Below the pieces are notes generated by a model. That model searched no databases. It had not been told where the DNA came from and worked only from the letters and a program-made list of their open reading frames with translations. The position numbers and the translations under genes were made by a program. A stretch of DNA of 64,000 nucleotides from Moringa oleifera (taxonomy: Eukaryota > Streptophyta > Magnoliopsida > Brassicales > Moringaceae), in the NCBI GenBank assembly GCA_021397835.1, contig JAJFZO010000120.1:549501-613500 (forward strand), in the 5' to 3' direction. Below, one piece after another: positions 16,342-58,285 of this stretch. Position 1 is the first letter of the stretch. Each line of letters starts with the position of its first letter.

Positions 16342-16383
<42 letters not shown>

Positions 16384-16440
16384 TAAAGCTAATTATTCAA
16401 TAACTTCCCAAAAATAATTTTTATTTTTAAAATTATGAAA
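15000..16440. repeat. Three diverged internal direct repeats
   Basis: Related segments start near 15,000, 15,700 and 16,060. Each has a cgtttctctt or tgtttctctt word, a catttgcaaat-like word, gaaagtttcaacaa, gttgatgtgg and a cctttatttgagttg-like phrase. The same triplet occurs in copy 2 (about 20,740-22,060) and a single member at 58,050-58,285. It is an older repeat layer beneath the 5.8-kb duplication. It includes a CA/TA microsatellite at 16,342-16,382. Confidence 0.75.
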
Positions 16441-22900: not shown

Positions 22901-25702
22901 TTTATTAAATGTTCTAAAGAGATCTTCCTCTTAAAAAGATATCTATCAAAAAAATAAGAATAAACAAAATTCATAGGTAGACTTATTTAATAATGTTCTA
23001 ATATTACTATAAAGTAACGATATGGATGGTTAATGACATCTTTCTTTCCTTATAAATAGAATATATTGTAAATTCACTTGATATTAATCAAAAACATAAT
23101 TAATTAATTAAAAATAGAAGGACTTGGTAATCATGTTATTCAAAGTTCTTCTTTAGAGATGATTTCTTTATTCAGGGCGTACTAATAAAAAAAATGCTTA
23201 GCAAGCCATCACATACACCACCTGTAGGTATTTTGCTCTTACTAGTTTTTGGTTTCATCATTTCATTATTAACCAATTGTAGGATGGTAAATCCTTCTTC
23301 CTTGTGAAAAAAAAAAAAAAAAAAAAACTCCACTCACCTTCAAGCAAGAATCTAATTTGTATATGTTGACAAAAAATGGTTACAATAATCATAGTTACTT
23401 TTCTACCTTCAAGACATTTGTTTGTAATATTTTGTTTCATAATAAGTATAAAGAGTAAGAAACAATTGAATAACAAAATACGTTTTTATTTTGTTTGGTA
23501 GTATGAGAAGTCAAAGCATACGAAAGAAAATGGACAATCCTTGATTAGAGAAAGATGGGATAAAAGAAAGCAAAATCTATATGAACTCCACCTCTCATTA
23601 CTTCTTCCTTTTACTCCATTTTCTCTACAATTTGAACAAAATATGTATGAATTTTGTTGATAATTTTTGAAAATTGAAGAAAAACCCTTGATTTAAAGAT
23701 AGTAAATATAACATAAGGATATTCAATAATTTTTTAAAAAATAATTGTTATTTTTAAAATTGACAAGCATATTTTATTTGAAAAATATACTATTCCTAAG
23801 TTTTCTTTTTAGTTCTTATTGTTTTTATAAATTAATATATTTTTTATGTGATGATGCAAAAATTATCTTTTTATGTTTTCAAAAAACTAAAACTACTTCA
23901 CATTTTTATTTTAAAAAACATTTCATGGATAATAAATTATATATATGTACCTATATAAACAATTGAGTAAACCATTATTTTTTTTTCATTAGAAACTTGG
24001 ACAAATCTAGTTTGTCATATTGTCACCGTGTAACAATATACGTCCCTTATTAGCTACATAACAATATATCCAACACATCAAGTGCTACAATTCATCACTT
24101 AAAAATTTCAGTTTGAGAATTCAGTTTTGACAAGCTTATTTTTCTCATTATTTGTTAACAAATCTTTTCCTATCTCTGTGTGTAAAAAATTAATTAAAAA
24201 AAGTTCTCAATATCATAACTGCACCCATTTTCTAGGAAGAGTTTAGGAAGATAATGCAAGGGGAAATGTGTTTCAACCAATAGCTGGCTTTGTACGCTTC
24301 CTCTCATAGAAGTCCAAAATATGAATTTTTCCTAAAATTTCATCCATAGCCTGTAAAATCATTTTTAATTAGACAAAATAAGTATGTGATAAAAATAAGC
24401 ATTTACTATTAAAGACACATCAAACACGTAAAAATAAGAATTGATTAGTTACTTGTATTTATTTAAATTAGGATTACTTTGACTACCTTTTAGTTTTTAT
24501 TAGTTAGATAAGAGTTGAATTTGTAATTAGCTTACAATATGATAAGGTAAGTTTTGCAATAAAAAAAAGGAGGTTTTAGCAAAAATTGTTTTGGATTTTA
24601 ATAACAATTATAATTGTCACTAAGGTTTTTACCACTCATTGTTCAAAAGCCAGCATAATAAGAGTCAAGAAAACCCTATAGCTATAATTGTCACGATTAC
24701 TGATAAAGATACAAAACAATTATCGCTAAAAATTTTTATATTTAATGACAATTAACAATTTTTGCTAAAGGCAAGTTGATCTTTATTTAATTTATAACAA
24801 TTAAAAGTTACCGCTAAAAATAAACATATTTAACGATACTTGTTAAAGCAATTAATAATTACACTGAAAATAAATTCAATTTTGTGTTGTTTGAGACAAT
24901 CATAATTGCGATTTGTTACTAATGATATTTTTTATTATTAAATGTCAATATAATTATTGTTACAAATCAAATTATAAATTTATTAAAGCAATTAAACATT
25001 GCCACTAAAAGGATTACAAATGGTTATATAACGATCATTAAACAATTATAACTAAAATAGTTACAAATTATTGTTTACTGACCATTGAACTAGAGCCACT
25101 AAAAGAATCATTTAAGTGCAATCAATAAAGTACCACTATTTATTTTTAAAATTATAAATAAAAATTAAAAATTTGTAACTTACAATATCACCATATCAGT
25201 AAAATGAATATACTCATATATAACAAAAATTTAATTTGCAATGAACCTTCTTACATAACAAAATATATCAAATTGCTAATGAAAATACAATTCAAAGTAA
25301 TAATTCTGCTAATGCTTCTAAATTTAAAGAGTTAAGAGCTAATACATTAACTTCACAAAATAACATTTGTTAAAATCATCAAAAAATGATGATTAATTCA
25401 CAATGTATAACCTGAAATATAAAAAGTACATATAAAAATTATGTATGAAATATAAGTAATAATTTACAAGAATCAATAAATAATACTTACCCTTAAAAGT
25501 TCAAATATGAGACATTCATCACTTGTTAAACACCTCTATTAGCACTCAATACATTATGAATCTATTAAATATAAAAAAAATCAAATTAAAAATAACTTTT
25601 CAGTTAAGTTACATTCTCATATTCCAAATTTGAAATGCCTTCTAAATGAACAATGCATAAATAATATCATGACATGTGTACAAATAAGAGCGTTATTATT
25701 CA

Positions 25703-36242: not shown

Positions 36243-36505
36243 CAGGCCTTTTTTTTTTTTTTTTTGTTGCACAACATGAAGGGATTGATGAAGCTTTTAT
36301 TTATCAAAGGAGAAGGAGTTGATGATATAGTTATCCTATATGGACATAGCCACAACTATACACGAAAAAGAAATGGAAGAGCCAAATAGAATAGCTGAGA
36401 GAATCTAGAAGCTGAAATAGTGAAAATGGAACCAAACTACATCAAAGAATACCATAAAAATTTCAAATTTAATTAACTGAATGATGCATTTATATCTCGA
36501 CACAC

Positions 36506-36628
36506 CTTTGATGTGAGAGTAGAACTAGTTATATCGATAAAGTTTGCCCTAGCTTCTGTTGCAAGTGCCTTGGGAAGAAAGGTGTTACCAGTAACAGGAG
36601 GACCAAACAGTAATATCCTTTTGCAAGC
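36506..36628 (-). pseudogene. AAA-ATPase Walker A exon with lost P-loop lysine
   Basis: The exon is 41 codons, has an AG acceptor and a GT donor, and stays open. It encodes [20 protein letters not shown], then [20 protein letters not shown] and K. Plant AAA-type ATPases of the spastin/katanin (meiotic) clade have GPPGTGKT here. In this copy Gly has become Val and the ATP-binding Lys has become Asn, which should abolish nucleotide binding. Length and both splice positions match the family exon, so the exon was copied with its introns. It is followed not by the Walker B exon but by unassigned sequence. The C-terminal exons of the same family are amplified at 38.7-50.7 kb, upstream in transcriptional terms, so the gene is scrambled. 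Confidence 0.8.
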
Positions 36629-36884
36629 CTACAAAATCACTACACAATTAAAGAATGCAAAAAACGGAGCAAATTGCAATTGGAAGCATTGAATAATGTT
36701 TAGTAGCTGTAAAAGATTTCCATGAGAATAAAGCTCTGGCCTCCTTATAGGCTTCCAATGCCTATTGTTAACAGACTATATCAATTAACTTGTAAAAGAA
36801 CTTGCTTAATAGAAAAATGGCAACAAAGAAAAAAACCCTAGGATTGTAGGAGGAACATAGTACCTATAGTACTATTATCAGAGT

Positions 36885-38545: not shown

Positions 38546-38835
38546 CAATTAAAGTACTCAGCTGGTAAAGAATAGCAAAGCAAGTATAAGAATAAGCAAC
38601 AAAAATTTTGAAAAAGATCCTGTAACCACTGATAGAAATTTCTCCATCCAATGGCCATACTTTAACGGAGTTATTGTATTTTGGTGTATTAACATGCAAA
38701 CAACCTAATGATATCTGCCAAGAAAACCACTTTTGCTCCCCTGTATAGATTCTGACAATATCAAGGTGTGGTTAGCAGTAACGTGAATAAAACATATGCT
38801 TCAACTATGACTGTTCAAAAAACCTAATAATTTAC

Positions 38836-39145
38836 CTATACCCACTGGCGGGTTTAAAACCAGCATCTGGATCTTCATTGGTCACATGGACAGCTACACC
38901 ATGAACTTTCCGCCTACTACTTTCTGGCTTGTCAAAATTAAAAAGAGTAACAGCGGCTGATGTTTTCCTCCTACCCTCCACCATGTTCCATGCCATAAAG
39001 TCACCATATTTCTCATCAAATATGGAATAGAACGTGAAATACTACATTAAATGACTATAGAAAAAGTTTTAATTAACTTCACTATGACACCAGAAATTTG
39101 CCAGAGAGAAATACCATCCCGATTGCAACTTTGGGCATCAGATCA
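38836..39145 (-). pseudogene. ACC1 biotin-carboxylase-domain exon fragment, copy 1
   Basis: Homomeric cytosolic acetyl-CoA carboxylase makes malonyl-CoA. This piece comes from the region after the ATP-grasp core of the biotin carboxylase domain. It encodes PKVAIGM, a frameshift, SLWQIS, a diverged stretch, GRRKTSAAVTLFNFDKP, ESSRRKVHGVAVHVTNEDPD and AGFKPASGYR before a GTAAAT donor. The family has GIPLWQIPEIRRFYG, WRKTS and HCVAVRVTSEDPDDGFKPTSG. Frameshifts and stops in the middle make it non-coding. It is not followed by any other ACC1 exon; the neighbouring captured sequence is RBL and AAA-ATPase. Confidence 0.78.
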
Positions 39146-39924
39146 AACTGTTCTATACTGCTATACTACTACTGCTATAATATAATTATTTTTCCTAACA
39201 AAATCTAACTTTATTTATTGTAAGAAATATTATTATAATATGCTTAAGGATGCAAACAATGGACATGTGAACAAGAAAAGTGCCCCACACATTACTTACC
39301 ACTTAAAAGAAATTAAAACCTATATCAGTACCTTATGTAATTCATCTAAATTGTTTAATAATATCATAATCGTCGTGTCCTCTCCAACTTTTTTATTGAA
39401 TGTTCTAAGGAGATCTTCCTGCAAATTTCTACAAAAAATAAAAATAAACAAAATTCATATACAGACTTACTTAGGAATGTTTTTATATTAGGAAATCACA
39501 ATAAAGTAACAATGGACCCACCTGATCAGATCTGCCTACTCCCACCTTCTCCATACTGCTTACTCCATTTGCTTAGTTCAAGCGTCATCAGCAACCGGTG
39601 GACCCACCTACAGTTCATCATATCACATCGCATCATATTATATCAGCAACTAGTTTCAGTATAAGAATGTGCATTCAATACCTTTGTTTTTGACTCAACA
39701 AAGCCTTCCAAATTAAGTGGCCTTAACACTAGAGATGTAAAGCTTTTGCCCTCCTATTCTTGCCCAATTATCATGTTTCCTATACAACAAATGTCACAAA
39801 AGAAAAAACTCCTAATAAGTTTGCAGAAACATACCTTTTTGCCTTCCTCTAAAAGTTTATGGACAGGCTTATACGCTGCAGCAACACTTAACTTTGAAAT
39901 AGACCAACAACTTCAACGTCATAC

Positions 39925-40152
39925 CTTCAAGTCACTGCTAGAATACCCCTTGGTTTCATTTACAAATTTCTCAAACAGGAAATCTGGTTCTAAATTCTCC
40001 TGAGCAAGAAATATTTTCAGCATCTTCAGATGATTCTGTACTTGGGTAGGTTCACAAACTCAGATCTGCCTGCTTCCACCTATTCCATACTGCCTACTCC
40101 ATTTGCTAAGTTCATTCATGCTTGCAGCATCATAAGACACCAATGGATCCAC
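39925..40152 (-). pseudogene. Example fused exon of an AAA module (last exon joined to an earlier one)
   Basis: After a CTATAG acceptor the minus strand begins with the family's last exon; consensus copies read VGPSVAYDAASMNEL then YGEGGSR. Without any intron it continues, in another frame, as VDLPEAENHLKILKIF, then EKLANETKGYSGSDLK and a GTATGA donor. In the normal protein LP.AEN...SGSDLK lies before NLC.AAAY, and VGPSVAYDA... is at the very C-terminus. The head-to-tail fusion marks the breakpoint of the module duplication. The frame change and a stop at the join prevent read-through, so no copy can encode a concatenated protein. Confidence 0.8.
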
Positions 40153-40834
40153 CTATAGTTCATCGTATCATATCACATCATGTTATAAATACAAGATTCC
40201 ATATTATATTAGCAACAAGTTTCTGTACAGAAATGTGCATTCAATACCTTGGCTTTTGACTCAATAAAGCCTTCCAAATTAAGTGGCCTTAACGCCGAAG
40301 ATGCAAAGCTTTAACCTTCCTATTCTTGCCCAATTATCAAACTTCCTGTACAATAAACGTCATCAAGAAAAAGCTCCGAATAAGTATGCAAAAACAAACC
40401 TTCTTTTCTTCCTCCAAAAGTTCTTGGACAAGCTTATGCGCTGCAGCAACACTTCACTTTGAAATTGACCAACAACTTCAACGTCGTACCTTTAAATTGC
40501 TGCAAGAATACCCCTTTGTTTCATTTGCAAGATTCTCAAATGAGAAATCTGGTTCTAAATTCAGTTGAGTAAGAAATATTTTTAGTAGCTTCAGATGATT
40601 TTCTGCTTCTGGTAGGTCCGCAAACTCAGATCTGCCTGCGGCCACCTATTCCATATTGCTTGGTCCATTTGCTCAGTTCATTAATGCTTGCAGCACCATA
40701 AGCAACCCATGGACCCACCTATAGTTCATCATATTATATCGCATCATATTATAAATTCAACATTCTCATATTTAATCAGAAACAAGTTTCTACAAAGGAG
40801 TGGGCATTCAATACCTTGGCTTTTGACTCAACAA

Positions 40835-40923
40835 AGCCTTCCAAATTAAGTGGCCCTCACACCAGAGATGCAAAGCTTTTGCCTTCCTATTCCTGCCGAA
40901 TTATCAAACTTCCTGCACAATAA
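40835..40923 (-). pseudogene. Example exon PLNLEGFVESKAK of an AAA module
   Basis: Each module has this exon between AAAYK...EEEKK and VGPSVAYDA. It follows a TGTGCAG acceptor and encodes a variable stretch, then PLNLE(D/G)FVESKAK before GTATTG. It matches the family's LRPLNL.DF..SKAK segment near the C-terminus. The best-preserved copy is around 49,210-49,120, where IIGQEYEGKSFASLVLRPLN is open. This copy has a stop just before GPLN. Confidence 0.7.
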
Positions 40924-40967
40924 ATGTCATAAATTAAGAAACCCCTAATAAGTCTGCAGAAACAAAC

Positions 40968-41022
40968 CTTCTTTTCTTCCTCCAAAAGTTCTTGGACAAG
41001 CTTATACGCTGCTGCAACACTT
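40968..41022 (-). pseudogene. Example short exon AAAYKLVQELLEEEKK of an AAA module
   Basis: This matches the alpha-helical C-terminal segment after SGSDLK in AAA-type ATPases (family form AAAYRPVQELLEEEKK). The donor follows the AAGAAG lysine codons. In the minus strand just before it, a TGA lies in frame if the nearest AG is used, and the usual NLC residues are not recognisable, so splicing from the previous exon is doubtful. About 16 further copies occur at module spacing. Confidence 0.7.
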
Positions 41023-41272
41023 CACTTTGAAATTGACCAACAACTTCAACATCATACCTTCAAATCACAGCCAAAATGCCCCTTGGTTTCATTTGCAAGT
41101 TTTTAACCGAAAAATCTGGTTCTAAATTCTCTTGAGCAAGAAATATTTTCAGCATTTTCAGATGATTTTCTGCTCCCCTGTATAGATTCTGACAATATCA
41201 AGGTGTGGTTAGCAGTAAGGTGAATAAAACATATGCTTCAACTATGACTGTTCAAAAAACCTAATAATTTAC

Positions 41273-41578
41273 CTGTACCCACTGGCGGGTTTAAAACCAG
41301 CATCTGGATCTTCGTTTGTCACATGGACAGCTACACCATGAACTTTCCGCCTACTACTTTCTGGCTTGTCAAAATTAAAAAGAGTAACAGCGGCTGATGT
41401 TTTCCTCCTACCCTCCACCATGTTCCATGCCATAAAGTCACCTTATTTCTCATCAAATATGGAATAGAACGTGAAATACTACATTAAATGACTATAGAAA
41501 AAGTTTTAATTAACTTCACTATGACACCAGAAATTTGCTAGAGAGAAATACCATCCCGACTGCAACCTCGGGCATCAG
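41273..41578 (-). pseudogene. ACC1 exon fragment, copy 2
   Basis: Nearly identical to copy 1, carried within higher-order unit 2. It keeps WNMVEGRRKTSAAV and HVTNEDPDAGFKPASGY, where the donor-side triplet reads gtac rather than gtat. It shares the same frame disruptions, so the decay predates the amplification. Confidence 0.78.
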
Positions 41579-41639
41579 ATCAAACTGTTCTATACTACTA
41601 TACTACTATTGCTATACTGTTATGCTGCTATACTACTAT

Positions 41640-42310
41640 ACTGCTACTGTACATCTTTCATAAATTTAGATTGATAGATAAATTGCATGGTAAAAACTTT
41701 GAGAAAAACATATTTCAGTGCAAATTCAAAGAGATGCAAATGTAAATTTAAAAATTCTTCTAACTAATTTGATGAACTTAAATATAAATTAATATTACCT
41801 TTTACAATTCTTTTCTTTTTAATTTATTAAGACGATATCACATTTATTTTGCATTAATGTGATTTATAATATTTTATGCATCTTTAGGTTCTTTTTTTTT
41901 TTAGTATTTTATTGTTGAATGTCTTGTTTATTTTGGTTAACGAAGTTATCTAATGAGTTAAGTTATAAGACAAATAATATAATATAATTATTTTTCCTAA
42001 CAAAATCTAACTTTATTTATTGTAAGAAATATTATTATAATATGCTTAAGGATGCAAACAATGGACATGTGAACAAGAAAAGTGCCCCACACATTACTTA
42101 CCACTTAAAAGAAATTAAAACCTATATCAGTACCTTATGTAATTCATCTAAATTGCTTAATAATATCATAATCGTCGTGTCCTCTCCAACTTTTTTATTG
42201 AATGTTCTAAGGAGATCTTCCTGCAAATTTCTACAAAAAATAAAAATAAACAAAATTCATATACAGACTTACTTAGGAATGTTTTTATATTAGGAAATCA
42301 CAATAAAGTA
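41640..42310. mobile_element. Repeat-family fragment shared with the 5.8-kb duplication
   Basis: Phrases such as tttattttgcattaatgt, gtcttgtttattttggtta, tgttctaaggagatcttcct and aataaacaaaattcata match, with changes, 16,975-17,320 and 22,675-23,030. So the array unit carries a diverged piece of the same repeat family as the 5.8-kb tandem copies. It recurs at 44,463-45,130 and, shortened, at 39,180-39,505. The family is not identified. Confidence 0.7.
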
Positions 42311-43994
42311 ACAATGGACCCACCTGATCAGATCTGCCTACTCCCACCTTCTCCATACTGCTTACTCCACTTGCTTAGTTCAAGCGTCATCAGCAACCGG
42401 TGGACCCACCTACAGTTCATCATATCACATCGCATCATATTATAAATACAACATTCTCATATTATATCAGCAACTAGTTTCAGTATAAGAATGTGCATTC
42501 AATACCTTTGTTTTTGACTCAACAAAGCCTTCCAAATTAAGTGGCCTTAACACTAGAGATGTAAAGCTTTTGCCCTCCTATTCTTGCCCAATTATCACGT
42601 TTCCTATACAACAAATGTCACAAAAGAAAAAACTCCTAATAAGTTTGCAGAAACATACCTTTTTGCCTTCCTCTAAAAGTTTATGGACAGGCTTATACGC
42701 TGCAGCAACACTTAACTTTGAAATAGACCAACAACTTCAACGCCATACCTTCAAGTCACTGCTAGAATACCCCTTGGTTTCATTTACAAATTTCTCAAAC
42801 AGGAAATCTGGTTCTAAATTCTCCTGAGCAAGAAATATTTTCAGCATCTTCAGATGATTCTGTACTTGGGTAGGTTCACAAACTCAGATCTGCCTGCTTC
42901 CACCTACTCCATACTGCCTACTCCATTTGCTAAGTTCATTCATGCTTGCAGCATCATAAGACACCAATGGATCCACCTATAGTTCATCGTATCATATCAC
43001 ATCATGTTATAAATACAAGATTCCATATTATATTAGCAACAAGTTTCTGTACAGAAATGTGCATTCAATACCTTGGCTTTTGACTCAATAAAGCCTTCCA
43101 AATTAAGTGGCCTTAACGCCGAAGATGCAAAGCTTTTACCTTCCTATTCTTGCCCAATTATCAAACTTCCTGTACAATAAACGTCATCAAGAAAAAGCTC
43201 CGAATAAGTATGCAAAAACAAACCTTCTTTTCTTCCTCCAAAAGTTCTTGGACAAGCTTATGCGCTGCAGCAACACTTCACTTTGAAATTGACCAACAAC
43301 TTCAACGTCGTACCTTTAAATTGCTGCAAGAATACCCCTTTGTTTCATTTGCAAGATTCTCAAATGAGAAATCTGGTTCTAAATTCAGTTGAGTAAGAAA
43401 TATTTTTAGTAGCTTCAGATGATTTTCTGCTTCTGGTAGGTCCGCAAACTCAGATCTGCCTGCGGCCACCTATTCCATATTGCTTGGTCCATTTGCTCAG
43501 TTCATTAATGCTTGCAGCACCATAAGCAACCCATGGACCCACCTATAGTTCATCATATTATATCGCATCATATTATAAATTCAACATTCTCATATTTAAC
43601 CAGAAACAAGTTTCTACAAAGGAGTGGGCATTCAATACCTTGGCTTTTGACTCAACAAAGCCTTCCAAATTAAGTGGCCCTCACACCAGAGATGCAAAGC
43701 TTTTGCCTTCCTATTCCTGCCTAATTATCAAACTTCCTGCACAATAAATGTCATAAATTAAGAAACTCCTAATAAGTCTGCAGAAACAAACCTTCTTTTC
43801 TTCCTCCAAAAGTTCTTGGACAAGCTTATACGCTGCTGCAACACTTCACTTTGAAATTGACCAACAACTTCAACATCATACCTTCAAATCACTGCCAAAA
43901 TGCCCCTTGGTTTCATTTGCAAGTTTTTAACCGAAAAATCTGGTTCTAAATTCTCTTGAGCAAGAAATATTTTCAGCATTTTCAGATGATTTTC

Positions 43995-46805
43995 TGCTCC
44001 CCTGTATAGATTCTGACAATATCAAGGTGTGGTTAGCAGTAAGGTGAATAAAACATATGCTTCAACTATGACTGTTCAAAAAACCTAATAATTTACCTGT
44101 ACCCACTGGCGGGTTTAAAACCAGCATCTGGATCTTCGTTTGTCACATGGACAGCTACACCATGAACTTTCCGCCTACTACTTTCTGGCTTGTCAAAATT
44201 AAAAAGAGTAACAGCGGCTGATGTTTTCCTCCTACCCTCCACCATGTTCCATGCCATAAAGTCACCTTATTTCTCATCAAATATGGAATAGAACGTGAAA
44301 TACTACATTAAATGACTATAGAAAAAGTTTTAATTAACTTCATTATGACACCAGAAATTTGCTAGAGAGAAATACCATCCCGACTGCAACCTTGGGCATC
44401 AGATCAAACTGTTCTATACTGCTATACTGTTATGCTGCTATACTACTATACTGCTACTGTACATCTTTCATAAATTTAGATTGATAGATAAATTGCATGG
44501 TAAAAACTTTGAGAAAAACATATTTCAGTGCAAATTCAAAGAGATGCAAATGTAAATTTAAAAATTCTTCTAACTAATTTGATGAACTTAAATATAAATT
44601 AATATTACCTTTTACAATTCTTTTCTTTTTAATTTATTAAGACGATATCACATTTATTTTGCATTAATGTGATTTATAATATTTTATGCATCTTTAGGTT
44701 CTTTTTTTTTTTAGTATTTTATTGTTGAATGTCTTGTTTATTTTGGTTAACGAAGTTATCTAATGAGTTAAGTTATAAGACAAATAATATAATATAATTA
44801 TTTTTCCTAACAAAATCTAACTTTATTTATTGTAAGAAATATTATTATAATATGCTTAAGGATGCAAACAATGGACATGTGAACAAGAAAAGTGCCCCAC
44901 ACATTACTTACCACTTAAAAGAAATTAAAACCTATATCAGTACCTTATGTAATTCATCTAAATTGCTTAATAATATCATAATCGTCCTGTCCTCTCCAAC
45001 TTTTTTATTGAATGTTCTAAGGAGATCTTCCTGCAAATTTCTACAAAAAATAAAAATAAACAAAATTCATATACAGACTTACTTAGGAATGTTTTTATAT
45101 TAGGAAATCACAATAAAGTAACAATGGACCCACCTGATCAGATCTGCCTACTCCCACCTTCTCCATACTGCTTACTCCACTTGCTTAGTTCAAGCGTCAT
45201 CAGCAACCGGTGGACCCACCTACAGTTCATCATATCACATCGCATCATATTATAAATACAACATTCTCATATTATATCAGCAACTAGTTTCAGTATAAGA
45301 ACGTGCATTCAATACCTTTGTTTTTGACTCAACAAAGCCTTCCAAATTAAGTGGCCTTAACACTAGAGATGTAAAGCTTTTGCCCTCCTATTCTTGCCCA
45401 ATTATCATGTTTCCTATACAACAAATGTCACAAAAGAAAAAACTCCTAATAAGTTTGCAGAAACATACCTTTTTGCCTTCCTCTAAAAGTTTATGGACAG
45501 GCTTATACGCTGCAGCAACACTTAACTTTGAAATAGACCAACAACTTCAACGCCATACCTTCAAGTCACTGCTAGAATACCCCTTGGTTTCATTTACAAA
45601 TTCCTCAAACAGGAAATCTGGTTCTAAATTCTCCTGAGCAAGAAATATTTTCAGCATCTTCAGATGATTCTGTACTTGGGTAGGTTCACAAACTCAGATC
45701 TGCCTGCTTCCACCTACTCCATACTGCCTACTCCATTTGCTAAGTTCATTCATGCTTGCAGCATCATAAGACACCAATGGATCCACCTATAGTTCATCGT
45801 ATCATATCACATCATGTTATAAATACAAGATTCCATATTATATTAGCAACAAGTTTCTGTACAGAAATGTGCATTCAATACCTTGGCTTTTGACTCAATA
45901 AAGCCTTCCAAATTAAGTGGCCTTAACGCCGAAGATGCAAAGCTTTTACCTTCCTATTCTTGCCCAATTATCAAACTTCCTGTACAATAAACGTCATCAA
46001 GAAAAAGCTCCGAATAAGTATGCAAAAACAAACCTTCTTTTCTTCCTCCAAAAGTTCTTGGACAAGCTTATGCGCTGCAGCAACACTTCACTTTGAAATT
46101 GACCAACAACTTCAACGTCGTACCTTTAAATTGCTGCAAGAATACCCCTTTGTTTCATTTGCAAGATTCTCAAATGAGAAATCTGGTTCTAAATTCAGTT
46201 GAGTAAGAAATATTTTTAGTAGCTTCAGATGATTTTCTGCTTCTGGTAGGTCCGCAAACTCAGATCTGCCTGCGGCCACCTATTCCATATTGCTTGGTCC
46301 ATTTGCTCAGTTCATTAATGCTTGCAGCACCATAAGCAACCCATGGACCCACCTATAGTATCATATTATATCGCATCATATTATAAATTCAACATTCTCA
46401 TATTTAATCATAAAAAAGTTTCTACAAAGGAGTGGGCATCCAATACCTTGGCTTTTGACTCAACAAAGCCTTCCAAATTAAGTGGCCCTCACACCAGAGA
46501 TGCAAAGCTTTTGCCTTCCTATTCCTGCCTAATTATCAAACTTCCTGCATAATAAATGTCATAAATTAAGAAACTCCTAATAAGTCTGCAGAAACAAACC
46601 TTCTTTTCTTCCTCCAAAAGCTCTTGGACAAGCTTATACGCTGCTGCAACACTTCACTTTGAAATTGACCAACAACTTCAACATCATACCTTCAAATCAC
46701 TGCCAAAATGCCCCTTGGTTTCATTTGCAAGTTTCTTAACAGAAAATCTGGTTCTAAATTCTCTTGAGCAAGAAATATTTTCAGCATTTTCAGATGATTT
46801 TCTGC
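43995..46805 (-). repeat. Higher-order repeat unit 3 of the array
   Basis: It has the same content as unit 2: an ACC1 fragment at 44,097-44,402, a mobile-DNA piece at 44,463-45,130, and AAA modules with markers near 45,197, 45,757 and 46,319. It ends where the next module continues without another ACC1 fragment, so the higher-order period stops after three units. Confidence 0.92.
44097..44402 (-). pseudogene. ACC1 exon fragment, copy 3
   Basis: Carried within higher-order unit 3 and almost identical to copy 2, with the same lesions. Upstream of it on the plus strand is a variable run of gctatactgctatact-like repeats (44,415-44,458) that differs in length between the three units. Confidence 0.78.
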
Positions 46806-49800
46806 TTTTGATAGGTCCATGTAGTCAGATTTGCCTGCTCCCACCTTTTCCATACTGCTTACTCCATTTGCTCAGTTCATTCCTGCTTAAAGCATCATAA
46901 GCAACCTGTGGACCCACCTACAGTTCATCATATCACACCACATCATATTATAAATACAACATTCTAATATTATATCAGCAACAAGTTTTGGTACAGGAAT
47001 GTCCATTCAATACCCTGGCTTTTGATTCAACAAAATCTTCCAAATTAAGTGGCCCTAACATGAGAGACACAAAGCTTTTGCCTTCCTATTCTTGTCCAAT
47101 TATCAAACCTCCTGTACAATAATTGTCATAAATGAAAAAATACCTCATAAGTCTATAGAAACATACCATCTTTTCTTTCTTCAAAAGTTCTTTGTCAAGC
47201 TTATATGCTGCAGCAACACTTCACTTTGAAATTGACCAACAACTTCAACATCATACCTTCAAATCGCTGCCAGAATACCCTTTTCCATTTGCTCAGTTCA
47301 TTCATGCTTAAAGCATCATGAGCAACCGGTGGACCCACCTATAGTTCATCGTATCACATCACATCATATTATAAATACAACATTCTTATATTATATCAAC
47401 AACAAGTTTTGGTACAAGAATATACATTAAATACCTTGGCTTTTGATTCAACGAAGTCTTCCAAATTAAGTGGCCTTAACATCAGAGACGCAAAGCTTTT
47501 GCCTTCCTATTCTTGTCCAAGTATCAAACCTCCTGTACAATAATTGTCATAAATGAAAAAACACCTCACAAGTCTATAGAAACATACCTTCTTTTCTTTC
47601 TCCAAAATTTCTTTGTCAAGCTTATATGCTGCAGCAACACTTCACTTTGAAATTGACCAACAACTTTAACATCATACCTTCAAATTGCTGCCAGAATACC
47701 CTTTGGTTTCATTGGCAAGCTTCATAAACAGGAAATTTGGTTCTGAATTCAATTCGGCAAGAAATATTTTCAGTATCTTCAGATGATTTTCTGCTGCAGG
47801 TAGGCCTAGATACACAGATCTGCCTGCTTCCACCTTGTCCATCCTGCTTACTCTCTTTGCCCAGTTCACTCATGCTTGCAGCATCAAAAGCAACCGATGG
47901 ACACACCTACAGTCCATCGAATCATATCACATCATATTATAAACCCAACATTCTTATATTATATCGGCATCAAGTTTCGATACAGGAATGTGCATCAAAT
48001 ACCTTGGCTTTTAGGTCCACAAAGTCTTCCAAATGAAGTGGCCTTAACACTAGAGATGCAAAGCCTTTGCCTTCCTATTCTTGCCCACTTTTCCAACTTC
48101 CTGCACTATAAATGTCATAAAAGAAAAAACTCCTAATAAGTCTGCAGAAACATACCTTCTTTTTTTTCCTCCAAAAGTTTCACTTCATTTTGAAATTGAC
48201 CAACAACTTCAACGTCATATGTTAAAATCGCTACCAGAATACCCCTTGGTTTCAGTTGCAAGTTTCTCAAACAGGATATCTAGTTTTAAATTCCAGAGCA
48301 AGAAATATCTTCAGTATCTTCAGTCGATTTTTTGCTTCAGGTAGGTCCACCTACTCAGATCTGCCTGCTTCCACCTTCTCCATCCTGCTTGCTCCATTTT
48401 CTTAGGTCATTCACACTTGCAACATCATCAGCAACCGATGAATCCATCTACAGTTCATCGTATCGTGTCACATTATATTATATGTATAACATTCTCATAT
48501 TATATGAGCAACTAGTTTAAGTAAAGGAATGTGCATTCAATACCTTGGCTTTTGATTCCACATAGTCTTCCAAATTAAGTAGGGTGAACATTAGGGATGT
48601 TTAAGCCTTTGCCTTCCTATTTTTGCCCAATTTTCCAACTTCTTGTACCATAAATGTCAGAAAAGAAAAAATGCCCTATAAGTCTGCAGAGACATACCTT
48701 CTTTTTTTCCTCTAAAAGTTCATGGACAGGCCTATACCCTGCAGCAACACTTCACTTTGAAATTGACCAACAACTTCAACGTCATACCTTCAAATTGCTG
48801 CCAGAATAGCCACTTTGGTTTCATTTGCAAGTTCCTCAAACAGGATATCTCGTTCTAAATTCTCTTGAGCAAGAAATAATTTTGGTATCTTCAGATGGTT
48901 CTCTGCTTCTGGTAGGCCCACAAACTCATATCTGCCTACTGCCATCTACTCCATTCTGCTTACTCCATTTGGTCAGTTCATTCATGCTTACAGCATCATA
49001 AGCAACCGATGGACCCACCTATAGTTTATCATATCATATCGCATCATACTATAAATGCAACATTCTCATATTACATCAAAAACAAGTTTCGGTACTGGAA
49101 TGTTCATTCAATACCTCAGCTTTTGACTCAACAAAGTCTTCCAATTGAGTGGCCTTAACACCAGAGATGCAAAGCTTTTTCCTTCATATTCTTGCCCAAT
49201 TATAAAACTTCCTATGCAATAAATGTCATAAAGGAAAAAAGTCCTAATAAGTCTGCAGAAACATACCTTTCTCCCAAAGTTCTTAGACAAGCTTATATGC
49301 TGCAGGAACACTTACACTTTGAAATTGACCAACAACTTCAACGTCATACCTTCAAATCGCTGCAAAAACACCACTTGATTTCATTTGCAAGTTTCTAGAA
49401 GAGGAAATCTGGTTCTAAATTCTCTTGAGCATGAAATATTTTTAGTATCTACAAATGATTTTCTGCTTCTGGCAAGTCCACACACTCAGATCTGCCTGCT
49501 TCCACCTTCTCCATACTGCTTACTCTATTTGCTCAGTTCATTCATGCTTGCAGCATCAGAAGCTACCGATGGACCCACCTACAGTTCATCGTATCATATC
49601 GCATCATATTATATATGCAACATTCTCATATTATATCATAAACAAGTTTCGGTACAGGAATGTGCATTCAATACCTTGGCTTTTGATTCCACAAAGTCTT
49701 CCAAATTAAGTGGTCTCAACACCAGAGATGCAAAGCGTTTTGCCTTCCTATTCTTCCCCAATTATCAAGCATCCTGCATAATGAATGTCATATAAGAAAA

Positions 49801-50747
49801 AACAATTAATGGGTCTCAAGAAACGTACCTTTTTTTCTTCCTCCAAAAGTTCTTGGACAAGCCTACATGCTGCAGCAACAATTCACATTGAAATTAACCA
49901 ACTTAAATGTCATACCTCCAAATCACTGCTAGAAAACCTCTTGCTTTCATTTGCAAGTTTCTCAAACAGGAAATCTAGTTCTAAATTCTCTTGAGCAATA
50001 AGTATTTTGAGTAACTCCGGATGATTTTTTGCTTCCACCTTCTCCATACTGCTTGCTGAATTTGCTCAGTTCATTCATGCTTGCAGCATCATAAGCAACC
50101 GATGGACCCACTTACACTTCATCGTATTCCATTGCATCATATTATAAATTTAACATTCTCATATTATATCAGCAACAAGTTTGGTAAAAGAAAGTGAATT
50201 CAATACCTTGGCTTTTGATTCAACAAACTCTTTGAAAATTAAGTGGCCTTAACACCAGATATGCAAAGCTTTTGCCCTCCTATTCTTGCCCAATTGTCAA
50301 ACTTCCTATAAAATAAATGTCATAAAAGAAAAAAATTCTCTTAAGTCTGCAGAAACGTACCATTTTTGGTTCCTCCAAAAGTTCTTAGACAGGCTTATAT
50401 GCTATAATCTCACTTCACTTTGAAATTGACCAACAACTTCAATGTCATATCTTCAAATTGCTTCTGAAATTTCCCCCTTAGTTTCATCTGCAAGTTCCTC
50501 AAACAGGATATCTCTTTCTAAATTCTCTTAAGCAAGAAATATTTTTAGTATCTTCGGATAATTCTCTGCTTCTAGTAGCCCGGAAACTTAGATCTGCCTG
50601 CTACCATCAACTCCATCCGGCTTACTCCATTTGCTCAGGTCATTAATGCTTGCAGCATCATAAGCAACCAATGGACCCACTTACAGTTCATCATATCATA
50701 TCGCATCATATTATAAATACAACATTCTCATATTATATCGGCAACAA
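46806..50747 (-). repeat. Irregular single-module part of the AAA-ATPase array
   Basis: Eight more modules carry markers near 46,886, 47,307, 47,872, 48,414, 48,986, 49,545, 50,078 and 50,647. They are more diverged from each other than the three higher-order units are, so this is the older part of the array. The module around 47,285 has lost ~145 bp, removing the fused LPEAEN part. The last module is cut at ~50,747 inside an intron, where the large duplication copy B begins. Confidence 0.9.
47672..47906 (-). pseudogene. Best-open fused exon in the AAA array
   Basis: Two overlapping frames show the fusion. One reads CPSVAFDAASMSELGKES then GQGGSRQ (last exon). The other stays open for 65 codons through LPAAENHLKILKIFLAELN and FMKLANETKGYSGSNLK, the AAA C-terminal subdomain. 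The Asp of GSDLK has become Asn. It lies in the irregular part of the array and shows the fusion best because no stop interrupts the second frame. Confidence 0.75.
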
Positions 50748-51060
50748 AGTCTTTTTTCACTTTACAACTTGTGTCCAACCAAATAATGCATCAAATATTA
50801 GAAAGAATAATTAAAAATGCAAATGAGCATGTTTTGAGTTTTTACGACAAAATAGGTACTCCTACATAACAGAAAAACAAACAATCTGTATTTTAGCATT
50901 TCTTATTTTTTTCACTTTACAACTTGTGTCCAATCGGACAAAGCATCAAATATCAAAAACAAAGAAATGAGCATATCTTGAGTTTTACACCAAAAGAACA
51001 ATCAAAGAAAAGCTTTCCACTAAACTATATATCATTGTGACAAAAGGAGAAGACTTTTAC

Positions 51061-51139
51061 CTTTAAAAGCAAATTTGGTACTAGAAAGCCAGTGGGTGCA
51101 CTTGATAGCTGCTCTATGCCCAGCGGGTGTAGTCAAAAT
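51061..51139 (-). pseudogene. ELP2 exon copy (ILTTPAGH...)
   Basis: Encodes ILTTPAGHRAAIKCTHWLSS then TKFAFK before a GTAAAA donor, closer to plant ELP2 than the copy at 2542-2620. It is open in one frame and has an AG acceptor immediately before ATTTTG. The next ELP2 exon is absent, because the duplication ends at 50,748. Confidence 0.75.
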
Positions 51140-51606
51140 CTGAGTACTCTACCCACTGTAAATTGAAGGAAAAGAAAAGTTCACAGATGAGTGGATAGCA
51201 TCCCCACAGTTCAAAGCCTATGAAATGCAGAAAACTAGTGGTGGAGAGGTGGACAGGAAAACTGTTTCATTTACCTAAAATAAAGCTTCCATTGACAAGT
51301 CATAATTTCAAATCAACAATAACTATAAGGCTGTAGAAGACAACGGAAATGTGATAGTTCACTGTATCATTCAAATGATAAATTATTCAGACCAAACAAT
51401 GGTTTATTCCACTCAAAATGGACACAACAATGTCCTCAATGTATCAAAAGTGAGTTGTAAAGCTAAGAACGATTACTTTACCAGTGCCACTCTGAGAATT
51501 ACCTTGATAAATGGTGCACGATTTTTGAAATAGCAACTTTTCACCTAGAAATCAAGTGCTGATTGAGCTTGATTTTCTTCAACTAGATATACTTCTAATT
51601 CGGTTC

Positions 51607-51774
51607 CAGTAAGCTTGATATCCATAGGAAGATGGGAAAACAATATCCAAAACATTGACAATGCCATCAAGAGAAGTACATACAAATATTGCATTGCTTT
51701 TAGAAACCAAAATCCAGTGATGCAAGTAACACCTTTCTTATGTGATCGCGGTAATTGAAAGAGATCCTGCAGTA
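51607..51774 (-). pseudogene. ELP2 WD-repeat segment copy in duplication B
   Basis: Equivalent to 3092-3255 and 4355-4523, but the WRHV part is damaged (cctgcagta replaces cctccagta plus the following bases), leaving the SHKKGVTCITG part and the following VNVLDIVFPSSYG-like piece. It is fused to the ELEVYLV exon as in copy A. Confidence 0.65.
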
Positions 51775-52774
51775 TTTAAAATTAAAAAAAAAAGAGGAAA
51801 AAAAGCAAAGATAATGTAATATCTAAAATTTTGAAAAAGAAAAGGTGGACAAAACATCAAAAAAAAAAAAAAAGCCATTGAAACTCTTCCCTTTGCGAAC
51901 ACATTTTTCTTTTTTTTATGTCAAAAACAAAGTAAAACATTAAATTAGCTATGAGGCACAAAGGGAATGCCACCCATGTACATAAAATGGTAAGATTTCA
52001 TTAAAAGAAAACACAACCAAGACAGTACCGTAAGCAGAATTTTCAAATGTCTATCCATCCCTCTCAAGCCAAGGTCATTCAATGCCAAAATAATACTAGC
52101 CTCTCCCCATTACTCCTCTAACCTATTTGTTCTAATTAACAACTGTAACAGAAAGCATACTCAACAGCCTTACACCCAACAATCTCATAACTACGATAGT
52201 GTCCTATTCTTTTTGGACTCATACCCAGTCCCCACATAATGGCCAAACAACCAAGTGTCAAGCTCAGCACCTCATTGTGTTTTCTTCCACCATACAATGC
52301 GATATGAATTCGTGATCTAACACTACCACATAACATAATGAAATAGATGTTATTATGTCATTATCAAATGAAACTAGTGATAGCTGCTCTGTGACCAGCG
52401 AGTATAGTCAAAATCTGAGTACTCTACCCACTGTAAATTGAAGGAAAAGAAAAGTTCACAAATGAGTGGATAGCATCCCACAGTTCAAAGCCTATAAAAT
52501 GCAGAAAACCAGTGGTAGAGAGGTTGACAGAAAAACTATTTCATTTGCCTGAAATAAAGCTTACATTGACAAGTCATAATTTCAAATCAACAATAACTAT
52601 AAGGCTGTATAAGTAAACAGAAATGATAGTTTACTGCATCATTCAAATGATAAATTATTCAGACCAAACAATGGTTTATTCCACTCAAAATGGACACAAC
52701 AATGTCCTCAACGTATCAAAAGTGAGTTGTGAAGCTAAGGATGATTTCTTTACGTGTGCCACTGTGGGAATTAC

Positions 52775-53607
52775 CTTAACAAATGGTGCAGGATTTCTGA
52801 AATGGCAACTTTTCACCCAGAAATCAAGTGCTGATTGAGCTTGATTTTCTCCAACTAGATATACTTCTAATTCAGCTCTAAGAAACTTGTTCAGTCTTCT
52901 CTGTACTCTTAATATCAACTCTTTGTGGTGGCCACCATTATCCTTAAAACCTTCCCCTGCACCATTCTATAACCAGTAATCAAAAGTTTCCAATCAAGTA
53001 TAATCAAATTCAATTACTTAAGCAACCAAATTAAGAAACCAAATTTGGAGGTAACAACATTCAAATCCTTCCTCACTCCATTCTATAACCAGTAATCAAA
53101 AGTTTCTAATCAAGCACAATCAAATTGAATTACCTAACCAACCAAATCAAAAAACTAAATTCTAAGATAACAACATTCAAATCCTCTCCATATAGCGTAG
53201 AAGAATATACCAGAAAAAATCTCCCAGCTGATCGACGCCTCCACGGTCAAGTAGCCAAATCGCAGAGCCCATTCTCAAATTTCTCCAAAGTTTCTACCTA
53301 TGTTTTTTCTCTCAAACTTTCTCTCTCTAAATTTCTCCCTCCGTAATAAATCTCTCTTTCTCTTCCAATCTATGCAATTTATAGTACGAGCACGCAACGG
53401 TCATATTACCTTATAAGCATTAAATTTCGAAAATCCACATAACGGCATTGGTCCAGCGTTGAGCATTTGCCACTGGTAAGAAAACGATCCTGTATGTGCG
53501 CGCGCACGTGTTCCTACCTGTTCGGGTTGAGCATCCTTCAAGCCATTCCTTCTTCCCTTCATAGAAACGGCCTCGCTTTTGCTAACCAGAGGGGGAGAGA
53601 GAGGCAT
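52775..53607 (-). CDS. Possible two-exon gene start, unrecognised protein (copy B)
   Basis: Second copy of the model at 5516-6360. Exon 1 (53607-53410) is identical to copy A over all 66 codons. Exon 2 (52966-52775) has 64 open codons and the same phase-0 junctions. By contrast, the intron between them has a deletion and several substitutions relative to copy A. No function is assigned; the weak hAT-dimerisation resemblance of exon 2 is discussed at copy A. Exon identity with diverged flanks could reflect selection, gene conversion, or simply a short time since duplication. Confidence 0.35.
53496..53510. other. CG-alternating palindrome overlapping CACGTG (copy B)
   Basis: Identical to 6249-6263, inside exon 1 of copy B. 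CpG sites decay quickly when methylated, so conservation of five CpG-type steps in both copies is noteworthy in this AT-rich, transposon-rich setting. Confidence 0.6.
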
Positions 53608-53829
53608 GGTCTTCTATGCAGACTAATCTGTCTCTTCTAGTTCGGGAGGTTGCCTTTGCGTGAGTGAAGTCCAAGGAGGAAGGCTATTATTTCTGTGTAC
53701 GGTGCAGCTCATGTAGCCAAATTACTATCCTCTGTGATCTACCTTACTGAATACATTGGTTTGAATCAGTACTTTCATGCCATGTGTTCAAGCATTTAAT
53801 ATCCTTGCATTTTAAGAGAGTTTAAAAAA

Positions 53830-56800
53830 AAAAGTGAAATGATAAAGTTTTTTAACATGTGGAATTGGTGGGATACAGATATTGAGACTTCCGAGCTCCA
53901 TATATGTTATAATTTAATGTATATAATATATATATATATATATACATGTATTTTTATATGTGTGAGCATGTATGCACTTGTATGCATGCTTTATTAACCA
54001 TTGCACAAAACAGAATAAAAGCATCTATTTTTATTTGAAAATGTTAATTCTAAAAAATTATTTAAAATGATGTATTTTGCTTGAATATAATCAAAGATGA
54101 GAGATTTATGAAAAAAAAATTGAATTCTTTCTAGCAATAGATCTATAGTTTTGAATTCAATATCTCGAAAAATAATATATTTACCATATCAAAATTGATT
54201 TGATTTATTATATAAAATTGATAAAAATATATAACAATATATAAATCTTATTTTTAGTATTTATTTATTTTTTATTTTGATAAAAAAACTATATTTATTG
54301 AGTGATAATTTAAAACCAAAAGAATAACAAGAATGTTTAATTAAATTTAAATCAACATGACGCCAATGTTTTTTATTAGAAGGGATTGTAATGGAGAAGT
54401 TGCTAAATATCTATGTTTTCCTCAAAAAATCAAAAAAAATACAAAAAAATCTTAATTATAAAAATATAAAATAATATAAATTTATTTTTCTAGCAATCAT
54501 AAAAGTATTATTGAAATTTTATTCATAAACACATCAAAAAATGCAAAAAAAACCCTTAAAATCTAAAAATAAACAAAAAAAATGCAAAACACAAAAGAAA
54601 AGGATAAAACTAAGAAAACGATGAAAAAACAAAAATAATAAAAAAATTTCATAAATAAAAAAAATCAAATAAAAAAAATCCAAAAAATGAAGTTACTAGA
54701 AAAAAAATAAGAGAAAGAAATTAAAAATACATAATAAAATTCTAATATAGATATATATATATATATGTAAGAAAAAAATTGAAAAAACCCAAAGTAATTA
54801 AAAAAAGAAAAAAAGAGAAAAAAAAGTTCAACAAAAATCATGATAATACATATAAAAAAGGCAATAATAAAAACAAAAAAAAAAATCATTGCAAAACAGA
54901 AAATAGATTTTGTTAGAAAAAAATAGTACAAAATGTAATATAAAATATATATATATACTAAAAAAATTATAAATCTATAATTTAAAATAACACATATGTT
55001 TGGAGTGAAGAGAAAGAGATAAGGATAAAATAACATAAAATTGTTTTTCTAGTAATTATAAAGATAATAACTACATTTGATAAAAACATCAAAAAAATGC
55101 AAAAAAAAATCTTAAATATAAAATAAAATAAATTTATTTTTCCTGTAATTATAAAAATATTATTCAAATTTTATTCAAAAACACAGCAAAAAAATGTAAA
55201 AAAACCTCAAAAAATCTAAAAAAATACAAAAAATGCAAAACACAAAAAGAAACGGATAAAAATTAAGAAAACAATGAGAATATAAAATTAATAAAAAAAA
55301 TTTCATAAATAAAAAATAAAGTAAAAATGCAAAAATATAAAAAATAAATAAAATAACAAAATCCAAAAAAATGAAGTTACTAGAAAAAAATAAAAAAAAA
55401 GATATTAAAAATACACAATAAAATTCTAATATATATATATGTGTGTGTGTGAGAGAGAGAAAAAAAATTAAAAAAACGCCAAGTAATTAAAAGAAAACAA
55501 GAAAAAAAAGAGTAAAAAATTCAACCAAAATCATGATAATACATATAAAAACAAAGACAATAGTAGAAAAAACAAATCATTGTAAAACAAGAAAACAAAT
55601 TTTATTGAAAAAGAAAATAGTAAAAAATATAATATAACATATATATATCAAAAAAATTATAAATCTATAATTTAAAGTAACACATATGTTTGGAGTCAAG
55701 CGAAAGAGATAAGGAAAAAAGTAACATAAAATTGTTTTCCAGTAATTATAAAGATAATATCTACATTTTGTTAAAAAAATAAAAAATACAAAAAAAACCT
55801 TAAATATAAAAATATAAAATAATATAAATTTATTTTTCCAGTAATCATAAAAAATATTATTCAAATTTTATTCATAAACACATCAAAAAAAAGTGAGAAA
55901 CCTCAAAAAAAAAAATCTTTACAAAATACAACAAATGCAAAACACAAAAGAAAAGGATAAAAATTAAGAAAAAATAAGAAAATAAAAATAATAAAAAATT
56001 CATAAATAAAAATTAAAGCAAAAACTCAAAAATATAAAAAATCAAATAAAATAAAAATTCAAAAAAATAAAATTATTAGAAGAAAATAAGAGAAAGAAAT
56101 TAAAAATACACAATAAAATTCTAATATTTACATATATGTGAAAAAAATTAAAAAAACTCAAAGTAATTAAAGGAAAATAATAATAAAAGAATTAAAAAAT
56201 TCAACAAAAATCATGACAATACATATAAAAAAAGGCAATAGTAAAAAAATAAAAATCATTGCAAACCAAGAAAATAGATTTTATTGAAAAAATAGTAAAA
56301 AAATAAAATAAAATAAAGTATGAAAATAAGAGAAAAATATATCAAAAAATCATAAAATAAGAAGAAAATCAAATAAATAAAATCTAAAAAATCAAAGAAA
56401 TTAAAAAATTAAAGATTAAAAAACTTAAAAGTTAAGAACATGAAGAGTTAGTAATGTAAAATATTAAAACAATTCAAGAATCAAAAGATATTCTATAAAA
56501 AAAATTTAAAAAATAATTTTAATTTGCATTGATCTTTTAAATAAATATAAAACAAAAATACAATAAATAAGATAATAAAAAACTAAAAATAAGACAAAGA
56601 AATAAAAAGTGTCTAAAATAAATAAATATAAGTATGTGAAAAATAAAATCAAATTCAAAAAATCAAATGAAAAAAAATTAAAAATTAAAAACTAAATTAA
56701 TAAACAAAATTGCAACCACTTGATAAAATCTAATATTTGTTATTTTACTAAATTAAAATAATCAAAGATGATAATAATAAAAATTATTTGAATATTTTAA

Positions 56801-57886
56801 TTTTAATTTTTGTATTATTGCGAATCCAAGGAAAGGTAAGATCACTTAAAATTATTTTTTCAATAATTATAAGAGATATTATTAAATTTTGTTCAAAAAA
56901 TGAAAAAAAAATGTTAGAAAAACTCAAAAAATCTAAAAAATACTAAAAAAACACAAGAAAAGAAAAAATATAAAAATATACAAAAATATAAAAGATCAAA
57001 AAAATATTTTAAAAATAAAAGTGAATAAAAAAATCAAATAAAATAAAAAATTCAAGAAAAATAAAATTACTAAAAAATGAGAAAAAGAAATTAAAAATAC
57101 CTAAAAATTAAAAAATTAAAAAACCCTAAAGAAATTAATAGAAAATATGAAAAAAAGAGAAAAAAATCCAACAAAAAAGGACAAACATATATATACATAT
57201 AAGACTATATATAAAACAATTTTTCGAGAAAATATTTAATCAAAAATTTTGGATGCTAGGACAGATCAAGCCCACAAAGTGAGTCATTTAAAACTTTTTG
57301 TTAGTATCATGTCAATGGTCTATATGGTGGAGCAAAAGTAACAAATAGAAAAAACATTTGCTTAACCACTAAAATTAAGCCAACATGAGTCAAAATTTAT
57401 AAAAAAAACATAAACAATGTGAAGATAATTTTTTTATATAATTAAACATAAGTAATTTTTTGTTAATTTTAATTTTTTAAAAAATTATATATATAATGTT
57501 AATAAAATATTATAAATAACATGCATTTGGAATAATATTTTCACTTTTAGCCATAAAACTTCTTTCAAGATTTTTGAATCATTAACTAAATTTTAACTAT
57601 TAATATATTGTACCACACATTGTTTTAAATTTTTTAAAATTATTATCACTAAAGGTTAATAATTTTTTTGAATTATACACAAATATATACTGAATTAAAA
57701 TATATTGTGAAAAATTCAATAATAATTTGCATCATAAAAATTATTATAAATAAATTTAAGATAATTATGTAAATAGACAAGATAACTAAATTTTAATTTA
57801 AAATAATGACCAATTAAAAGAATTTTTTTCTAATATTATTATGCCATTAATTGTAAAAAATTTATGAAAATATAAGAAATCAATAA
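53830..57886. other. A-rich low-complexity region of duplication B, with a ~690-bp tandem repeat
   Basis: Matches 6600-9870. The phrase attattcaaattttattcat or a close variant recurs near 54,510, 55,158 and 55,857, and the phrase cacatatgtttggagt near 54,991 and 55,681. This indicates about three tandem units of 650-700 bp, where copy A has one. Long open frames on the minus strand here are F/I/L-rich translations of A runs and are not genes. AT microsatellites occur at 53,925-53,944 and 55,431-55,440. Confidence 0.8.
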
Positions 57887-57895
57887 AATTTTAAA
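57880..57895. other. Empty insertion site corresponding to the CACTA-like element
   Basis: Sequence before this point matches the left flank of the element (to 9870) and sequence after it matches the right flank (from 14,815): caataaaattttaaatttta runs through uninterrupted. It dates the insertion to after the large duplication, or means that copy B descends from an element-free allele. Confidence 0.85.
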
Positions 57896-58285
57896 TTTTA
57901 AATGATAAAAATTAAAATATCATTGAAATTATATGAAAATTTTAAAAAAATAAAAATTTTGTTCTTATTATAAATTTAAAATAAGTTTAGAAAACTAAAT
58001 TTATAAAAAATATTTATCTATTTAAAAAAAATGATAATTGAAATGAGGCTTTACCTAATAGCTGACCTTGCTGGCTGTTTCTCTTATTCCCTGCTAGTTC
58101 TAGTATCATTGCAAATCATGAAATAACTAACAATGTATTGGTTTCTACATTGAAAATAAGAAGTATTCACGTGAAAAATGATTGATGTGGCTGTTGTAGT
58201 TTTTAATCAGTTGGCTTTTCGACCTTTATTTGAGTTGAATCATTAAATTGTTAAGCCTGCATTTTGAGCATCATACAACTAAAAT

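Follow-up and report, generated by a model that had tools for sequence, protein, structure and literature searches.

Described systems and the Moringa array

Satellites derived from genes, repeats of a higher order and captured gene fragments have each been described. The CapA satellite of platyrrhine monkeys has a suggested origin in an intron of NOS1AP (Valeri et al. 2018, via PMC8210747), alpha satellite forms higher-order repeats in which diverged monomers are amplified jointly (PMC5615363), and gene-fragment capture by the plant transposons Pack-MULEs, Helitrons and Pack-CACTA is well described (PMC13317346, PMC3288121). We analyzed a stretch of 64,000 nucleotides from the Moringa oleifera genome (279.5 Mb in 669 contigs), positions 549,501-613,500 of the contig designated C473 and called the window hereafter, which carries an array of 17 modules built from the C-terminal exons of an AAA-ATPase gene. 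We put the probability at about 85% that this array is an inert, pseudogene-derived local satellite lying within a mosaic of duplicated host-gene fragments. The aligned modules share an inactivating lesion that is older than the amplification, and they display no coding constraint.

Like CapA, the array represents a gene piece, present as a single copy elsewhere, that was amplified in tandem. By contrast, CapA is an intron-derived major satellite (PMC8210747), whereas the Moringa array is small and local, with tens of copies of a multi-exon segment from a broken gene. The likeness to alpha satellite lies in the joint amplification of diverged monomers, with near-identical equivalents between units and different neighbours within them; unlike alpha satellite, the window has only three units, each with unrelated gene pieces (an upstream exon of the AAA gene and an exon of the fatty-acid gene for acetyl-CoA carboxylase, ACC), and it gives no sign of ongoing monomer homogenisation (PMC5615363). 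With Pack-MULEs, Helitrons and Pack-CACTA the locus shares intron-bearing fragments of unrelated genes on one strand, mostly non-functional and found at many places in the genome. However, no transposon proteins (95 open reading frames, ORFs) or transposon ends (two boundaries, by eye) have been found so far, the copies belong to duplicated segments that are long and colinear, and the locus is characterised above all by tandem amplification of the fragment (PMC13317346, PMC3288121). Among the matches listed from the open-access literature, no title or abstract start described an AAA- or ACC-derived satellite. Since the component processes are already known, the interest of this locus lies mainly in its surviving intermediate stages.

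Two-level architecture of the array

An nhmmer profile search recovered 17 minus-strand modules between 39,527 and 50,748, and a search with a single seed likewise returned 17. The module is about 0.56 kb in length, and self-BLAST and profile searches found all 17 repeated head to tail on the same strand. Fourteen are near full length, two are truncated (46,826-47,283 and 47,284-47,806) and one is an end piece of 159 bp. Nine lie in three higher-order units of three modules each, seven are monomeric, and the end piece completes the array. The features of the locus are as follows.

39527..50747, minus strand: whole array of 17 AAA-ATPase C-terminal modules (nhmmer, self-BLAST)
43992..46818 (right end approximate), minus strand: higher-order unit of 2.83 kb, the first on the minus strand, with modules 46261-46818, 45695-46253 and 45139-45687, the upstream AAA exon with intron, and the ACC exon
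41168..43991, minus strand: higher-order unit of 2.82 kb with modules 43451-44000, 42885-43443 and 42329-42877, AAA exon and ACC exon; AGCA stands at the junction with its neighbour
38731..41167, minus strand: higher-order unit of 2.44 kb, about 0.39 kb shorter, with modules 40627-41176, 40061-40619 and 39527-40053, AAA exon, and ACC exon running into the ancestral ACC flank
46826..50580, minus strand: monomeric modules 50030-50580, 49487-50035, 48928-49479, 48356-48919, 47815-48348, 47284-47806 and 46826-47283, the last two forming a 93.8% pair
50590..50747, minus strand: truncated module at the array's end, holding part of the final intron and exon, interrupted at 50,748-50,750 by an unrelated repeated block
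44852..45126, minus strand: upstream exon of the AAA gene with intron ends, 85% identical to C100; other copies at 42042-42316 and 39240-39514
44046..44398, minus strand: ACC exon with flanks, 82% identical to an ACC-type gene on C3; other copies at 41222-41574 and 38785-39137
36288..36751, minus strand: degenerate region of the AAA gene's Walker A exon, located downstream of the array, with GPPVTGNT as its P-loop
50750..57928, no strand assigned: flanking repeated block, a 94-96% copy of 2226-7155 followed by an A-rich stretch about 80% identical to 7571-9918 (self-BLAST)

Read along the minus strand, each unit, as delimited by self-BLAST, consists of three modules, the upstream AAA exon with its intron ends, a spacer and the ACC exon, and the units are 98.7% identical across a 4.8-kb offset match in self-BLAST. 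Equivalent modules of different units are 97.6-100% identical, whereas non-equivalent modules within a unit are 84.0-86.7% identical. Near-identity of equivalents between units, combined with divergence of neighbours, indicates a higher-order repeat pattern. The seven monomeric modules show 80-86% identity to other modules, with one pair at 93.8%. Tandem Repeats Finder, run with a period limit of 500 bp, reported in the array stretch one pair with a 421-bp period and, besides it, only some very short repeats. The original prediction had proposed about 17 AAA-ATPase C-terminal modules, nine of them packaged with an ACC exon into three units of 2.4-2.8 kb, in a two-level, satellite-like structure made from gene exons, and these searches bear it out on each of these points.

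A shared lesion older than the amplification

Compared with the intact copy on contig C100, every one of the 40 aligned modules lacks the first-intron acceptor together with the opening part of the second exon. These 40 comprise 25 from C473 (16 in the window and 9 in a second array to its left), 14 from C73 and 1 from C572; four shorter pieces, two each from C473 and C73, were left out. The lesion consists of 47 bp lost between two GTGTTG repeats. The same deletion, with the same ACC neighbour, is found at C572:1,280,493, an unamplified single-copy locus that matches window 41,167-42,880 as a continuous run of module, upstream AAA exon and ACC (81.7% over 1,735 alignment columns). That the deletion occurs in all aligned modules of the three arrays as well as in this single-copy locus indicates that the array was built from an already broken copy, and because C572 carries both the lesion and the AAA-ACC adjacency, both precede amplification.

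Away from the deletion, the modules have mostly intact donor and acceptor dinucleotides. The earlier description of modules complete with introns and splice sites therefore stands for most sites outside the deletion, but not for the first-intron acceptor and the adjoining exon start. A second lineage of AAA fragments, with a different lesion, is dispersed in many copies (C12:8084462, C84:448368, C572:1229801 and similar). Fragments of this type were ruled out as the source of the array, as the three copies aligned have the other lesion and retain the acceptor region.

Absence of coding constraint

Difference from the module consensus amounts to 0.098, 0.089 and 0.097 at codon positions 1, 2 and 3, respectively, against 0.095 in introns, for the 19 C473 modules that remained after 6 near-identical higher-order copies were dropped. 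Codon positions and introns are thus equally diverged, indicating that no coding constraint is visible. Reading frames are broken in 24 of the 25 C473 modules, a figure that becomes 21 of 25 if a 1-bp shift in exon 4 is disregarded. Taken together, the equal rates, the acceptor loss in all 40 aligned modules and the broken frames (21 of 25) rule out a coding array or a functional tandem-exon gene.

Neither a hairpin source of small RNAs nor a structured RNA was retained as a candidate: no inverted match was found in the 30-60-kb part of the window, and there was no Rfam match at gathering scores. On the plus strand of the left array, antisense to the modules, a stop-free frame of 219 residues (L013:8946-9602) has a length reached by 0 of 200 first-order random sequences; it has no Pfam match. 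The longest antisense frame of the right array, 138 residues, is not unusual (38 of 200 random sequences reach 138). We did not accept these long antisense frames as genes and read them as the antisense of repeated exons.

Identity of the AAA-ATPase and ACC pieces

Judged by sequence similarity, the modules descend from the four 3'-terminal exons of a plant gene for an MSP1/ATAD1-like AAA-ATPase, an enzyme type that extracts membrane proteins. On the minus strand from C100:632,344 onward, all four of these exons are present and their reading frame is open from end to end; they are preceded by exons in which Walker A and later AAA motifs were read by eye. The window modules are 82.3-86.6% identical to these parental exons and introns. 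The search of the host genome for a single-copy parental AAA gene, as called for by the original prediction, thus led to a parental-type gene on C100, but degenerate fragments are also scattered over many contigs.

A 314-residue peptide of the source type on C100 has its best protein match at 91% in Prunus, and its best matches are flowering-plant proteins. Among the 120 listed matches, several are named outer mitochondrial transmembrane helix translocase, MSP1-like or AAA domain-containing protein 1, while many are uncharacterised. In the PDB, p97/CDC48-type ATPases score best with the same peptide and spastin lower, and MSP1/ATAD1 is absent among the best 60 of 265 matches. The MSP1/ATAD1 label therefore follows the names of protein-database relatives only. 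Pfam matches of the source peptides are to AAA (PF00004) and, for the part corresponding to the module, additionally to the AAA lid (PF17862).

The ACC exon of the units, which has at least 42 matches in the genome, is 82% identical to C3:6,664,323, a source-type ACC gene whose adjoining exons were read by eye as homomeric ACC. The C3 peptide of this exon scores 13.8 bits against Biotin_carb_C, below the cut-off of 32.4, and the window copy has no Pfam match. Another C473 fragment close by, which is similar to the ACC exons that come next on C3, reaches CPSase_L_D2, a biotin-carboxylase-type ATP-grasp family, with 36.7 bits, above the cut-off. The name acetyl-CoA carboxylase for the unit exon and the C3 gene is based on the C3 match, the adjoining exons and the CPSase_L_D2 match, and in part on the general sequence of ACC.

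Related arrays and the order of events

The left array, at C473:537,811-543,026, gave ten matches, among them a partial one and a truncated one, and a further whole paralogous array lies at C73:43,033-49,168. The four stretches searched with the profile yielded 46 matches, pieces included. In the module search of the genome, 40 of 44 candidates were scored, making the counts lower bounds; matches covering most of a module were confined, among the candidates scored, to C473, C73, C572 and C100. We thus did not find a large genome-wide copy number with homogenisation; the modules group by position and not by array.

A module tree with 41 rows places modules next to their positional counterparts in other arrays; 48,356, for instance, pairs with the left-array module at −9,680, 48,928 with −9,115, and 46,261 with C73:47,561. 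The left-array module at −10,228 has no partner. Eleven module types are common to at least two of the three arrays, in conserved order. Positional grouping and shared order indicate that the row is older than the block duplication, a segmental duplication of about 50 kb, and that copies still group by position indicates that the modules have not been homogenised since. The deep nodes of the tree are short and weakly supported, a shape which suggests that the modules may have arisen in a burst.

The second array on C73 is accompanied by one ACC exon (49,894), pointing to one higher-order unit there and to a later triplication in the window. The two inner unit junctions read GGGGAGCA followed by GAAAATC, and the last unit runs into the ancestral ACC flank as GGGGAGCA followed by AAAGTGG. 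Since AGCA is common to the unit junctions and the ancestral ACC flank, it marks the tandem-duplication point, a 4-bp microhomology.

The sequences show four steps. A copy of the MSP1/ATAD1-like AAA gene lost 47 bp between the GTGTTG repeats, and the broken copy was placed beside an upstream AAA exon and an ACC exon, a single-copy state that C572 preserves. Its 0.56-kb C-terminal piece then gave rise to a row of differing modules, perhaps in a burst, and this row travelled with a segmental duplication of tens of kb. Later, in the window array and its 99%-identical C73 counterpart, a 2.8-kb segment comprising three modules plus the AAA and ACC exons was multiplied in tandem through the AGCA microhomology, giving the three units of the window. 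Unequal exchange or replication slippage probably drove the amplification, and a pericentromeric, heterochromatic setting without function seems probable.

Genomic surroundings and dispersed fragments

C73:1-21,432 is a reverse-oriented copy of the window locus at 99.04% identity that starts inside the array; identity along C73 drops to about 92% after 27.6 kb. C73 may be an allele of the window locus, a near-copy or a mis-join. From C517:164277 onward, 92-95% identity to the window extends from 30,217 down to 5,469 with local gaps, and the module search gave no C517 match among the candidates scored. C517 was rejected as an empty site because it matches the surroundings only to window 30,217; it is a block without the array in which the insertion point is not seen. 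The long colinear copies on C517 and C73 qualify the locus as part of a segmental duplication.

AAA and ACC fragments occur on at least 28 contigs, those of the source-type genes (C100 and C3) included. At C12:8.27 Mb and C51:0.39 Mb, too, the two kinds of piece are found side by side on a single strand. Fragments of ACC or AAA spaced by about 15-115 kb were observed along C563, C37, C84 and C100, which suggests very long tandem segmental duplications on these contigs. Pfam matches among 95 filtered ORFs from the C473 region and C51 were Tic110 (2 members), ATP-grasp families, AAA and a weak apyrase match.

Several other features of the window were recorded. At 11700-13300 on the minus strand lies a chimera of three fragments on one strand, whose parts match C12:3,524,241 (85%), C82:1,123,880 (82%) and C3:6,121,247 (89%); it recurs whole at C517:174,409 (95%) and on C73. 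A direct duplication of 5.1 kb at 96% identity joins 14240-19347 and 19983-25051, and appears to be present once in C73 and C517. The flanking repeated block, which has internal tandem repeats, occupies 1007-9918 at the left end of the window and 50750-57928 to the right of the array; it recurs on C473, C73 and C517, with a 2-kb tandem repeat on C517. Both of its copies in the window contain very A-rich stretches (54000-58000 and 8000-10000), with about 15-16% G+C and an AT skew of about 0.3.

Alternative explanations

The copy number in the window was read from a single contig, and the 99%-identical part of C73 (its first 21 kb) breaks inside the array, raising the possibility that misassembly accounts for the number of modules or for the three higher-order units; two of the higher-order modules are indeed 100% identical to each other. 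However, the monomeric modules differ from each other by about 15-20% (save the 93.8% pair), most of them have counterparts in matching order in two further arrays, the shortened first unit (2.44 kb) is distinct from the other two, and parts of at least two higher-order units are seen in C73 as well, so that we consider an artefact very unlikely. Even less probable, in our view, is a regulatory locus whose read-through transcripts would yield small or circular RNAs acting on the AAA or ACC gene, although the resemblance of the window modules to the parental exons and introns and the intact dinucleotides outside the deletion would suit such a locus. The equal rates in codon positions and introns, the deleted acceptor, and the lack of inverted and Rfam matches all speak against it, and the multi-exon, circular or small RNA role envisaged by the original prediction is not supported.

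How the pieces came together is a separate matter, in which a gene-capturing transposon (Helitron, Pack-MULE or Pack-CACTA) could have carried and shuffled them, with the array as its tandemly expanded cargo; this is compatible with an inert array. Such elements have recognisable ends, either TC...CTRR with a hairpin in Helitrons or terminal inverted repeats with a target duplication. In favour of capture, fragments of unrelated host genes are joined on one strand (AAA with ACC in the window, C572, C12 and C51, and the three-fragment chimera), and they keep their introns, indicating copying at the DNA level. Stepwise capture has been described for maize Helitrons (PMC3288121). By contrast, no transposable-element domain was found among the 95 ORFs scanned with Pfam, and inspection by eye of two boundaries, the right-hand limit of the C12/C51 similarity and window 50,747, revealed no Helitron-type end, no motif search having been made. 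A genome search with the Helitron family PF14214 gave no match, but its controls were equally silent. The C517 and C73 copies, moreover, stay colinear over tens of kb, which is the pattern of segmental duplication. We regard capture as possible but doubtful. It is less likely still, though conceivable, that the array is only the most visible case of a class of host-gene-fragment duplicons found throughout the genome. In this class, unrelated pieces joined on one strand would have been carried in units tens of kb long, spread over at least 28 contigs by a vector without the usual transposon proteins, and such units would seed gene-derived satellites.

Some observations weigh against an inert, pseudogene-derived satellite with the history proposed above. 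A GCAG directly after the deletion is kept in many modules and is a candidate substitute acceptor. The dinucleotides of the five remaining splice sites (ten bases) are somewhat better kept than other intron bases, with 12 of 188 cells changed (0.064 versus 0.095), a difference that is not significant, as 981 of 5000 random intron column sets were at least as conserved. Four of the 25 C473 modules have open frames in their retained exon pieces, the 1-bp shift in exon 4 aside, and a non-coding role of the array may exist. The weak deep nodes leave a burst as the likelier but not the sole reading of the tree, and the switch from 99% to about 92% within C73 is possibly a mis-join.

Significance

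An inert, pseudogene-derived satellite at this locus leaves the understanding of the ATPase or of ACC unchanged, and its exon-like, intron-containing repeats could mislead gene finders into calling genes. It provides an unusually legible record of the birth of a satellite from a gene, running from a source-type gene with intact last exons through the broken single copy on C572, the row of modules and its segmental copies to the higher-order step, with all stages and their junctions preserved in one genome.

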